Shown in pieces: positions 14,774 to 61,274 of a DNA stretch of 64,000 nt. This DNA comes from an uncultured Clostridia bacterium. GTDB taxonomy: Bacteria; Bacillota; Clostridia; Oscillospirales; Ruminococcaceae. The notes below the pieces were generated by a model. The model saw nothing but the letters and a program-made list of their open reading frames with translations. It was not told the origin of the DNA and did not search any database. The first letter of the stretch is position 1. Each line of letters starts with the position of its first letter. The DNA is taken from contig CANQPB010000007.1 in assembly GCA_947625615.1 (NCBI GenBank), positions 16,881-80,880 on the forward strand, in the 5' to 3' direction. The translations under genes and the position numbers were made by a program.

Positions 14774-16057
14774 TTATCTCCTCTGTCTGTGTAGGAATTC
14801 AAGAGCTTTTTTGCCTATGTCGCGGCGGTAGTAGGCGTTTTCAAAGCTTATCTTTTCGCATTTTTTATACGCCTCGGCGACGGCCTCTTCAAGGTCTTTT
14901 CCGCACGCCGTAACGCCCAAAACTCGCCCGCCGGAGGTCAGAAGCCTGTTTCCGTCAAGCTTTGCCCCCGCGACATATACTGAGGACTTAAGCCCGTCGG
15001 GAATTGTAATCTCAAAGCCCTTTTCATATTTTTCGGGATATCCCGATGAGGCCATTATAACGCAGCAGGCCGCGCCGTCGGAAAATTCCACGGGGACGTC
15101 CTTTAAATTGCCGTTCGTCGTCGCGAGCATAATGTTAAGTAAATCCGATTTCAGAAGCGGCAGCACCACCTGTGTCTCTGGGTCTCCGAAGCGGCAGTTA
15201 TATTCAACCACCTTCGGACCCTCGGGGGTTATCATCAGCCCGAAGTAGAGGCAGCCCTTAAAGGGCCTTCCCTCGGCTTTCATGGCCTTGACTGTCGGCA
15301 GAATTATCCTCTCCATTGCCTGCTTATGGACTTCGGGGGTGTAATAGGGGCTCGGGGCGACGGTGCCCATGCCGCCGGTGTTAAGGCCCTCGTCGTTGTC
15401 GTGCGCGCGCTTGTGATCGGTCGAGGGAACCATAGGTATAACGGTCTCGCCGTCGGTAAAGGAGAGCACCGAAACTTCCGGGCCGGTCATGAATTCCTCA
15501 ATGACGATTCTGTCGCCGCTCGCGCCGAATTTTTTGTCCTGCATAATTTCGTGGACGGCGTTCTTGGCCTCGTCTTTAGTCATGCAGACCAAAGCGCCCT
15601 TTCCGAGGGCGGGGCCGTCGGCTTTCACGACGGTGGGAATCTTTGCGGTCTCAAGGTATTCAAGGGCCTTTTCGGCGTCGGTGAACACCTCATACTCCGC
15701 CGTGGGGATATTGTTTCTTCGCATGAAATCTTTGGAGAACACCTTTGAGCCCTCGATTATCGCGGCCTTTTTGTCGGGTCCGAAGCAGGGGACGCCGACT
15801 GCGTTGAGCTCGTCTACGCAGCCCATTACAAGGGGGTCGTCCTGTGCGACGACAGCGTAATCGACGGCATTATCCTTTGCAAAAGAAACTATCGCGGGGA
15901 TATCGGTGGAGGAAATCGGCACGCACTCGGCGTCGGCGGCAATCCCGCCGTTTCCGGGAAGGCAGTATATTTTTTCAACGGAGGAATTTTCGGCGAGCTT
16001 TTTTATTATAGCGTGTTCGCGGCCGCCTCCGCCTACAACCATTATTTTCATAGTCAA
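14774..16057 (-). CDS. purD: Phosphoribosylamine-glycine ligase
   Basis: MKIMVVGGGGREHAIIKKL, GLNTGGMGTVAPSP, NCRFGDPETQVVLP. Confidence 0.96.
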   Translation of the reverse strand: MTMKIMVVGGGGREHAIIKKLAENSSVEKIYCLPGNGGIAADAECVPISSTDIPAIVSFAKDNAVDYAVVAQDDPLVMGCVDELNAVGVPCFGPDKKAAIIEGSKVFSKDFMRRNNIPTAEYEVFTDAEKALEYLETAKIPTVVKADGPALGKGALVCMTKDEAKNAVHEIMQDKKFGASGDRIVIEEFMTGPEVSVLSFTDGETVIPMVPSTDHKRAHDNDEGLNTGGMGTVAPSPYYTPEVHKQAMERIILPTVKAMKAEGRPFKGCLYFGLMITPEGPKVVEYNCRFGDPETQVVLPLLKSDLLNIMLATTNGNLKDVPVEFSDGAACCVIMASSGYPEKYEKGFEITIPDGLKSSVYVAGAKLDGNRLLTSGGRVLGVTACGKDLEEAVAEAYKKCEKISFENAYYRRDIGKKALEFLHRQRR

Positions 16058-52742: not shown

Positions 52743-52906
52743 GCGACGGGTGTTTACATTTTCGCGCAACGCTTCGTGGCACGGGCTTATACGGGCCTAT
52801 ATGAAACTTTCGGAAAATATTTTCAAATAAGTCTTGACAAACCGGCGGGTTTTCTGTATAATAGAAAAAGTCGGCACGGCAAGTGACCGACTGTGGTTTA
52901 GATCAT

Positions 52907-53209: not shown

Positions 53210-53665
53210 ATGAAACTTGCCGAAGCATTACAAGAACGCGCCGATCTTAAAATCAGGCTTTCAAACCTTTGCACGCGACTTACAAACAATTGCCTCTATC
53301 AGGAAGACGAAAAGCCCGCCGAAGATCCCGCTGAGCTTTTGAAGGAATACGATGAATGCGCCTCAAGGTTTCGCTATCTTGTCGAGAAGATAAATCTCAC
53401 CAACTGCAGAACCTTAGTCGGCGGCAAAACTCTCACCGAGATTCTTGCCGAAAAGGACGCCATGTCGCTCCGCCTTTCTCTTTACCGCAATCTTGTCAAC
53501 ACAGCAAGCTCGGGCGCTCAGCGTGCGCGCCGCTCCGAGATAAAAATTCTCAGCGCTCTCGACGCAAAATCCCTCCAGAAGACCGCCGACCAAATCGCCC
53601 GTGAATTAAGGCTCCTTGACAACACCGTTCAAGCCGCCAACTGGGCGAACGACCTCATTGAGTGA
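53210..53665 (+). CDS. DIP1984/septicolysin-family protein
   Basis: MKLAEALQERADLKIRLSNLCTRLTNNCLYQEDEKPAEDPAELLKEYDECASRFRYLVEKINLTNC; RBS AAAGGAG. Confidence 0.75.
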   Translation: MKLAEALQERADLKIRLSNLCTRLTNNCLYQEDEKPAEDPAELLKEYDECASRFRYLVEKINLTNCRTLVGGKTLTEILAEKDAMSLRLSLYRNLVNTASSGAQRARRSEIKILSALDAKSLQKTADQIARELRLLDNTVQAANWANDLIE

Positions 53666-53880
53666 ACTTTCAGCCGGTAGCCGTTTTCAGAGCGAATGCT
53701 ATCTCCCGCAGTTGAGAATGAACTTGCAGCCTGAGGAGGCCCATAGGACAGGGCTCGGGTTCAAATCCCGGCTTATCGTAAGTCTTGACAGCTTACAGGC
53801 GCATAATATATCGAGTATATCTCACTACCTTGGCATTGACTGAAACCCGGCGAGGGTGGGCAAGGGGCAAACTAAAAATA
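53666..53880 (+). ncRNA. Candidate structured RNA with tRNA-like T-arm, downstream of the DIP1984-family gene
   Basis: 5-bp T-stem and 7-nt T-loop TCGGG-TTCAAAT-CCCGG at 53755-53771; upstream hairpins AGTT-GAGAATG-AACT (7-nt loop) and GCCT-GAGG-AGGC; no complete cloverleaf. Confidence 0.4.
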
Positions 53881-53910: not shown

Positions 53911-53941
53911 AGCGGCAGAAGCAATCATCGCCTCTGCCGCT
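53911..53941 (-). terminator. Terminator of hslO transcript
   Basis: Minus strand AGCGGCAGA..TCTGCCGCT-TTTTAG. Confidence 0.75.
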
Positions 53942-59189: not shown

Positions 59190-60896
59190 TTATTTCTTTT
59201 TCATATGCTTTCTGACAAACTCGTTCAGCGCGTCCTCGTCGATATAGGAATACCAATCCTCGGGCAGGGCCCTGAACCCCTCTTTTTCCATGGCCGCCAC
59301 CGCTATCTCGGTCAGCACGTCTTCGTCAACATAATCTAACCAGTCATAGGGGATCGCCTTTATCCCGCCTTTTTCGGCGGCCTCTTTAGCGATTTTCGAA
59401 AGAACGTCTTCGTCAACAAACGGAAGCATCGGCGTCGGAACGCTGTCGAGGCCTTCCCCGGCTTCGCCGCTCCCGCTTCCGTCTTCCTTGCCGGCGGGGG
59501 AGTTCTCGCCTTCGCTGTTAAGATTTTTACTCTTATTTATGCGTTTTCTTACAAACTCGCTCAGCGCGTCCTCATCGATATAGGGATACCAATCCTCGGG
59601 CAGGGCCCTGAACCCGTCTTTTTCCATGGCCGCCACCGCTATCTCGGTAAGCACGTCTTCGTCATCATAGTCAAGCCAAGTCTCGGGAATTGCGCTTATT
59701 CCGTCTTTTTCGGCGGCCTCTTTAGCGATTTTCGAAAGAACGTCTTCGTCAACAAACGGAAGCATCGGCGTCGGAACGCTGCCGAGGCCTTCCCCGGCTT
59801 CGCCGCTCCCGCTTCCGCCTTCGCTGTTAAGATTTTTACTCTTATTTATGCGTTTTCTTACAAACTCGCTCAGCGCGTCCTCATCGATATAGGGATACCA
59901 ATCCTCGGGCAGGGCCCTGAACCCGTCTTTTTCCATGGCCGCCACCGCTATCTCGGTCAGAACATCTTCGTCATCATAGTCAAGCCAAGCCTCGGGAATT
60001 GCGCTTATTCCGTCTTTTTCGGCGGCCGCTTTTGCGATTTCCGAGAGAATATCGTCGTCAACGTAATCCAGCCAGGTGTCGGGAATCGCGCTGATTCCGT
60101 TTTTTTCCGCGGCTTCTTTCGCGATTTCCGAGAGAACGTCGTCGTCAACGTAATCCAGCCAGGTGTCGGGAATCGCACTGATTCCGTCTTTTTCGGCGGC
60201 TTCTTTTGCGATTTCCGAGAGAATATCATCGTCAACATAATCCAGCAAGGTATCGGGAATTGCGCTTATTCCGTCTTTTTCGGCGGCCGCTTTTGCGATA
60301 TCGCCGATATATTCCTCGTCAACAAACGGCAGCCAATCCTCGGGTATTGCGTTAATCCCGCCCTTTTTGACAGCGTCTACCGCCAGCTCGCCTATAAGCT
60401 CGTCGCTTAAAAACGGCAGCAGCGACGCCGGAACGCTGTCGAGGCTTTCTATGGCCTCGCTATTCCTGCCGCCGTCTTCTTTGGAGGCAGGGGAGGCTTC
60501 GTCTTCGCTCAGGAGATTTTTCCTCACAACGCTGTCCACCTGGGCGTCGACAAGTATCGGGGCTATTTGATTTATCTCCTCGGCCGACATTTCCGGCGCT
60601 TTCTCCTCGCTTATGTCGGTGACGAGCTTCGCCGCGCGCTCGCTGCCAAGTATCCTGTCCACGCTGACGTCGAACAGCGAGGCCAGCTCCATAAGGTTGG
60701 CGATGTCGGGGCGGCTTTGGCCCCTTTCCCAGTTCGAGACCGCCTGAAAGCTCACGTTCAGCCTGTCGGCAAGCTCGGATTGGGTGATTCCCGCTGCCTT
60801 GCGAAGCTTAGAGATGTTTGCGCCGACCCTCATAATGTCGAAGACCTCGCTCTGAGGTTTCTTTAAAATTTCGTTTTTTGATTTTCCGAAGATCAT
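59190..60896 (-). CDS. XRE-family HTH regulator with ~13 tandem 29-aa repeats
   Basis: MIFGKSKNEILKKPQSEVFDIMRVGANISKLRKAAGITQSELADRLNVSFQAVSNWERGQSRPDIANLMELASLFDVSVDRILG then repeats of AIPDTWLDYVDDDxLSEIAKEAAEKDGIS; RBS AAAGGA before 60896. Confidence 0.85.
   Translation of the reverse strand: MIFGKSKNEILKKPQSEVFDIMRVGANISKLRKAAGITQSELADRLNVSFQAVSNWERGQSRPDIANLMELASLFDVSVDRILGSERAAKLVTDISEEKAPEMSAEEINQIAPILVDAQVDSVVRKNLLSEDEASPASKEDGGRNSEAIESLDSVPASLLPFLSDELIGELAVDAVKKGGINAIPEDWLPFVDEEYIGDIAKAAAEKDGISAIPDTLLDYVDDDILSEIAKEAAEKDGISAIPDTWLDYVDDDVLSEIAKEAAEKNGISAIPDTWLDYVDDDILSEIAKAAAEKDGISAIPEAWLDYDDEDVLTEIAVAAMEKDGFRALPEDWYPYIDEDALSEFVRKRINKSKNLNSEGGSGSGEAGEGLGSVPTPMLPFVDEDVLSKIAKEAAEKDGISAIPETWLDYDDEDVLTEIAVAAMEKDGFRALPEDWYPYIDEDALSEFVRKRINKSKNLNSEGENSPAGKEDGSGSGEAGEGLDSVPTPMLPFVDEDVLSKIAKEAAEKGGIKAIPYDWLDYVDEDVLTEIAVAAMEKEGFRALPEDWYSYIDEDALNEFVRKHMKKK
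59213..60425 (-). repeat. Intragenic tandem repeats (87-bp unit; 309-bp higher-order duplication)
   Basis: gatttttactcttatttatgcgttttcttacaaactcgct block at 59522 and again at 59831. Confidence 0.85.
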
Positions 60897-61112
60897 TTTG
60901 ACCGTCCTTTCGTAATTTGATGTCTTCATTATGCCACTTCCGAGTAAAACTGGCCAGCAAGCGCTGATTGAATTGCGCCGCTCAACTGCTGCTTGAATAA
61001 AGTATACCTTATTTTTTATCGCTGGGCAACAGGCTTTCGAAAATATTTCAAAAAAATTTTCCCAAACGCTTGACAAACCCGCGTCTTTGTGGTAACATAC
61101 TTTCTCGGAGAT

Positions 61113-61188
61113 GCGCCCGTAGCTCAGTGGATAGAGTGCCCGGCTACGAACCGGTAGGTCGAGAGTTCGAATCTCCCCGGGCGCGCCA
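61113..61188 (+). tRNA. tRNA-Arg (ACG)
   Basis: GCGCCCG/CGGGCGC acceptor, anticodon loop CTACGAA, encoded CCA; promoter TTGACA-17-TAACAT upstream. Confidence 0.95.
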
Positions 61189-61274
61189 CGGCGTCGCAAG
61201 CTCAATCGCTTGTGACGCTGTTTTTATGTCTTTGCGCCTATTAAATTTACATTTTATAATTTCGGGGGAATTTT

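Follow-up and report, generated by a model that had tools for sequence, protein, structure and literature searches.

A widespread pseudoknotted RNA class coupled to DIP1984-family genes and carrying an optional tRNA T-arm

Little is understood about scaffold RNAs, Y RNAs among them, in tRNA damage and phage conflict. A novel tRNA-like molecule of rtcB operons, linked to Band-7/SPFH, was reportedly described by Burroughs and Aravind in 2016. In Salmonella, an rsr-yrlBA-rtcBA operon is known (PMC7790460). We analysed a 64,000-nucleotide stretch of DNA (the window) that encodes a structured RNA 3′ of a DUF6847/DIP1984-family gene. This RNA resembles the Ro60 (Rsr)-Y RNA/YrlA pairs in that it is small and structured, has a tRNA-like part and adjoins the gene of its suspected protein partner. 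In at least one lineage (A. baumannii), though not in the window, it also lies in an operon with RtcR, RtcB and RtcA, a parallel to the YrlA precedent invoked in an earlier, sequence-only reading of the locus. It differs in that the partner is DUF6847 rather than a TROVE protein, and in that the RNA is ~195 nt long, pseudoknotted, devoid of a D or anticodon arm and of any Rfam match. No Y RNA-type Rfam match was obtained at E-values up to 5–10 in 12 loci, the window segment and the A. baumannii operon. By this comparison, the cassette would be at most functionally analogous to Ro60-YrlA, and membership fails on both the partner protein and the RNA family.

tRNA (RF00005) folds into a cloverleaf of acceptor, D, anticodon and T arms, whereas the RNA described here has the T-arm only, in agreement with the sequence-only reading, which had found no canonical D-arm or anticodon arm; its covarying structure also differs. 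tmRNA likewise combines pseudoknots with a tRNA T-arm, and the T-arm gives a sub-threshold tmRNA match (8.2 bits; gathering threshold 47), but the present RNA has neither acceptor/CCA nor a tag reading frame, its partner is not SmpB, and ARAGORN found no tmRNA at the RNA in the window. The Band-7-linked tRNA-like RNA shares an association with RNA-repair loci, and in G436, an IMG/VR contig from a putative phage or plasmid, a Band_7/SPFH protein is encoded at 15075–15971 (L144), ~2 kb from the cassette; its partner is reportedly Band-7 and not DIP1984. Rfam, at gathering and permissive thresholds, holds no family for the RNA, and the Rfam check suggested by the sequence-only reading gave no tRNA or other family at 53672–53868. 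Likewise, a literature search found no link between DIP1984/DUF6847 and an RNA. The RNA class thus compared appears to be new, the main risk to its newness being the Band-7-linked RNA.

The cassette in the window consists of the following features.

52834–52862, + strand: consensus promoter TTGACA-17-TATAAT (12/12 match), upstream of tRNA-Asp/Gly/Cys and DIP1984
53210–53665, + strand: DUF6847/DIP1984-family gene, 151 aa, helical, predicted protein partner of the RNA
53672–53868, + strand: DIP1984-associated structured RNA, core ~195 nt (match to covariance model R1 of 144.9 bits, E = 5.6×10−42, model positions 1–191; covariation)
53911–53941, no strand assigned: terminator-like hairpin shared with hslO, scored on the − strand only

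The protein passes the family threshold of PF20935 (156.9 bits; cut-off 27) and also matches NCBIfam NF038048 (168.5 bits; cut-off 70). Its AlphaFold2 model (pLDDT 93) has a sole match in the fold search, PDB 3kdq, which is DIP1984 of C. diphtheriae (TM 0.95, 39% identity); no recognisable catalytic or RNA-binding relative was found in this search. The 3kdq structure, solved in 2009, contains the protein alone without RNA and is annotated ‘unknown function’, and on Acinetobacter plasmids the family is annotated ‘septicolysin’. As previously noted from the sequence, the gene follows a tRNA cluster (tRNA-Asp/Gly/Cys); the cluster and DIP1984 are probably transcribed together from the promoter at 52834–52862, and a terminator-like hairpin lies between them. 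The RNA starts 6 nt past the DIP1984 stop.

Within the RNA, the following elements were located by alignment of its homologs.

53676–53680, + strand: conserved GGTAG motif at the RNA 5′ end (T7 and A8 invariant in alignment A3)
53680–53690, + strand: P1 5′ strand GCCGTTTTCAG, partner 53840–53851 (covariation helices 1–3)
53693–53699, + strand: P2 5′ strand CGAATGC, partner 53833–53838 (helix 4)
53702–53705, + strand: PK1 5′ strand TCTC, partner GAGA in the P3 loop at 53714–53717
53708–53727, + strand: P3 hairpin with GAGAATG loop (helices 6–7)
53738–53755, + strand: P4 hairpin GCCC/GGGC with loop ATAGGACA (helix 9)
53746–53749, + strand: P5 pseudoknot 5′ strand GGAC in the P4 loop, partner GTCT at 53782–53785 beyond the T-arm (helix 10)
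53755–53771, + strand: T-arm TCGGG-TTCAAAT-CCCGG, with a 5-bp stem and a 7-nt loop
53833–53851, + strand: P2 and P1 3′ strands, GCATTG A CTGAAACCCGGC (covariation, coordinates)
53852–53868, + strand: conserved G-rich 3′ tail GAGGGTGGGCAAGGGGC (pattern match in most of 80 loci)

P1 and P2 thus form a closing helix, the T-arm is placed between P4 and the P5 3′ strand, and the G-rich tail comes last; this tail is missing from the Acinetobacter and Psychrobacter copies. Near-invariant stretches include GGGCGAATG, RCATTGACTG and GAGGGYGGG..GGGG. The GGTAG motif resembles a tRNA D-loop, a likeness of sequence alone.

Two alignments were used for covariation, A3 with 41 sequences, independent of R1 fitting, and A4 with 100 sequences fitted by R1. 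In A4, 87.9% of cells pair compared with 64.4% in shuffles, and the covariation score is 0.538, compared with 0.193 ± 0.005 after shuffling and at most 0.101 when the partners are slid. Double changes are found at 36 of the 38 pairs (equalled by 10 of 500 shuffles). A3 is concordant (84.7% paired, covariation 0.392 vs. 0.198), and an unsupervised APC scan places the same pairs on top. All six pairs of P2 show double changes, with 98% of cells paired, as does every pair of P4 (96%). P5 is paired in 95.7% of cells, with GGGC/GCCC, GGAC/GTCC and GAGC/GCTC among its variants, and PK1 shows double changes at all four pairs (72% of cells paired), its variants including TCTC/GAGA, ACGC/GCGT and TCTT/AAGA. 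Since R1 was built without the P5 and PK1 pairs, the covariation support for these two helices is independent of the model. Taken by itself, the window offers a weak case, the single-sequence fold of its RNA being no more stable than shuffles (z = +0.75). The significance lies in conservation. It is near certain that the RNA is a real conserved class of its own, with several pseudoknots.

Some of the structure proposed from the window sequence alone survives this comparison. Relatives retain the hairpin whose 7-nt loop reads GAGAATG, here called P3. The acceptor-like stem CGGTAG/TTATCG is not kept in relatives, and neither are the hairpins GCCT-GAGG-AGGC, GTAAG..CTTAC and ACCC-GGCGA-GGGT; most bases of these four elements take part instead in P1 and P5, which covary. 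A candidate GGTAG/TNACC helix was also rejected, with no covariation and with GGTAG missing in Acinetobacter and Enterococcus, as was a GCGTACAAACGC hairpin that is disrupted in relatives.

It is evident that the RNA is coupled to DIP1984 both physically and phyletically. R1 finds a match in all 80 DIP1984 loci fetched from GTDB genomes, including, at E ≤ 8×10−17, every one of the 40 that were left out when the model was built; these had been picked by protein similarity and so are not fully independent of the model set. The RNA is found 3′ of DIP1984 in Mycobacterium (93 bits), Streptomyces (66), Picosynechococcus (51–58) and Paracoccus (55), and with weaker scores in Psychrobacter (24.6), Acinetobacter (19–22) and Enterococcus (19). 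Together, RNA and gene occur in at least six phyla (Bacillota, Actinomycetota, Cyanobacteriota, Pseudomonadota, Spirochaetota and Bacteroidota). Among the 80 loci, those of Treponema (Spirochaetota) and of a Paludibacteraceae (Bacteroidota) nest within Bacillota on the protein tree, which argues for horizontal transfer. Among 31 congeneric genomes, the gene is present in four and the RNA in the identical four; a fifth RNA match (G019, L133) proved to be a false positive within coding sequence. Of 392 genomes of the class, nine gave the RNA in a strict search and 12 gave the gene at a score over its cut-off; eight genomes had the two together. Two of the four genes without a strict RNA match carry a weak RNA (L018 and L020); of the others, L019 is a divergent paralogue that lacks the RNA, and L021 is a partial family match. 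The ninth RNA (G063, L129, C286:183–383) has the T-arm, and no DIP1984 is found in the 182 bases up to the contig edge; this copy is possibly an orphan. A scan of viral_contigs with the genus profile gave no match.

The RNA starts from a few to ~25 nt past the DIP1984 stop in nearly all loci. The neighbors in Bacillota are otherwise variable, with his genes, a HIGH nucleotidyltransferase, phage lysozyme and tRNAs among them, which makes the gene and its RNA the unit. In three loci (L036, L064 and L096), ~100 nt are inserted between the stop and the RNA, with a CTTTTTC...GAAAAAG inverted repeat, and the insert is perhaps a small mobile element.

The T-arm reported by the sequence-only reading is indeed present 3′ of the DIP1984 gene, at the coordinates listed above. 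It occurs at the same site in ~64 of 100 RNA copies, in Actinomycetota, Bacillota and Spirochaetota, and is hence neither absent from homologous loci nor a scar unique to this one. When the best hairpin of each copy was taken with no sequence filter, all 35 with a 7-nt loop read T54, T/C55, C56, R57, A58, N59, Y60 and were closed by G53-C61. In copies with a T-arm, most of the other best hairpins have this same sequence, with the stem running into the loop. By itself, the motif GGTTCRANYCC carries little weight: chance predicts 0.60 matches in the window, and three were seen. The presence of the T-arm on the protein tree needs at least 14 changes, eight of which are forced by supported branches, so it has been repeatedly lost or gained over a persistent core. 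About one-third of the copies are without it, as is the copy of Acinetobacter, and the core function therefore cannot lie in tRNA mimicry. The pseudoknotted ~195-nt core accepts the T-arm as an optional insert, which has full tRNA identity in many copies. Thus, the idea of a tRNA-like RNA tied to this protein family holds for the T-arm, at a constant site in three phyla, but not for the RNA overall, which is not tRNA-like, has no acceptor or anticodon arm, and carries the T-arm as an option.

RNA-repair and tRNA genes surround the cassette in some genomes. A. baumannii has a divergent rtcR, followed in order by RNase Z, rtcB, a hypothetical open reading frame, DIP1984, the RNA and rtcA, and the rtc/RNase Z region is a genomic island according to PMC3224125. 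This context was found in one genus, and the RNA copy there is divergent (21.8 bits). The hypothetical protein between rtcB and DIP1984 (216 aa; L120:4340–4990) had no match in a Pfam search; it contains RNKLEH, which may be read as a HEPN-like R-x4-H motif. In G436, the DIP1984-RNA pair is located within 26 tRNA genes in 20 kb (L144:9222–19992), and the cassette is beside tRNA genes in a minority of loci only. RtcB is absent from the genome to which the window belongs and is thus not required by the system, and tblastn with the Acinetobacter sequence as query found no RtcB near the other loci.

Because gene and RNA travel together over at least six phyla, once in an RNA-repair operon, they are probably the two parts of a machine for tRNA or RNA damage. 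On balance we favor, with some reserve, the overall proposal that DIP1984 and the RNA form a ribonucleoprotein that handles damaged tRNA, like but unrelated to Ro60-Y RNA. That the two form a ribonucleoprotein at all is likely. A role in handling tRNA or RNA damage, by analogy with Ro60-Y RNA in rtcBA operons, is put forward tentatively, at slightly less than even chances. The helical DIP1984 protein would bind the RNA and the two would act as one particle. In it, the RNA core would serve DIP1984 as a scaffold, and through the optional T-arm the particle could contact enzymes that recognize tRNA elbows. A particle with a T-arm might guide enzymes of tRNA repair or quality control to damaged tRNA, or it might act as a decoy and keep nucleases away from tRNAs. 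A broader version, which we regard as somewhat less likely than not, would be a hitherto unknown, horizontally mobile, pan-bacterial ribonucleoprotein that guards or repairs tRNA under attack by anticodon nucleases, with the T-arm, a mimic of the tRNA elbow, as a swappable part for docking or as decoy; it would be a second, independently evolved counterpart of Ro60-Y RNA. Through its one-to-one tie to such a large and widespread class of structured RNA, the DIP1984 family gains a testable mechanism for the first time. Its contexts in the rtc operon and the tRNA array point to tRNA damage and phage conflict, and the optional T-arm is a natural experiment on the effect of a tRNA elbow on a non-tRNA RNA.

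The same data could be explained by a cis-acting 3′-UTR element of the DIP1984 mRNA, serving stability, processing or autoregulation by DIP1984, with no trans-acting RNA. The close position of the RNA behind the stop in nearly all loci and the varying gene downstream fit this explanation, which we nevertheless consider unlikely: ~195 nt with covarying pseudoknots and near-invariant unpaired bases exceed the usual needs of autoregulation, the full tRNA identity of the T-arm is left unexplained, the A. baumannii RNA sits within an operon between DIP1984 and rtcA, and the ~100-nt inserts between stop and RNA are tolerated. The patchy spread (four of 31 congeneric genomes), the location of the cassette on plasmids with toxin-antitoxin genes close by, the horizontal spread on the protein tree and the co-occurrence of gene and RNA would also suit a mobile addiction or defense cassette of type III toxin-antitoxin kind, with DIP1984 as effector and the RNA as neutralizer. 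In type III systems, the toxin gene is preceded by an RNA made of tandem repeats. The RNA here has no tandem repeats and lies downstream, PADLOC models gave no match, and the DIP1984 fold matches 3kdq only, which makes this a distinctly improbable reading.

Slightly less probable again is a catalytic RNA (ribozyme) or a small-ligand binder with DIP1984 as cofactor. Nested pseudoknots and long near-invariant stretches recall compact ribozymes and aptamers, but Acinetobacter and Psychrobacter have lost the G-rich tail, the T-arm is dispensable, and no regulated gene is conserved downstream. A decayed tRNA, a tRNA pseudogene or an att scar, the alternative given by the sequence-only reading, draws on the T-arm identity and on the tRNA genes alongside. 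It is refuted by covariation and has almost no probability left: ~100 loci over six phyla share identical position and structure with compensatory changes, and neither ARAGORN nor Rfam finds a tRNA at 53672–53868. The decayed tRNA or att remnant is thus rejected because T-arm and RNA recur at homologous loci.

Several observations concern the genes around the cassette. In Picosynechococcus plasmids (L115:1611–3544 and L118:2347–4286), divergent VWA and MerR genes adjoin the DIP1984-RNA cassette. In congeners without the cassette (L137 and L138), the tRNA-Asp/Gly/Cys cluster adjoins hslO, in reversed orientation. Elsewhere in the window, at 59190–61205 (− strand), a 671-aa open reading frame encodes an HTH_3 domain followed by many EAAEKDGISAIPDTWLDYVDDD-like repeats.
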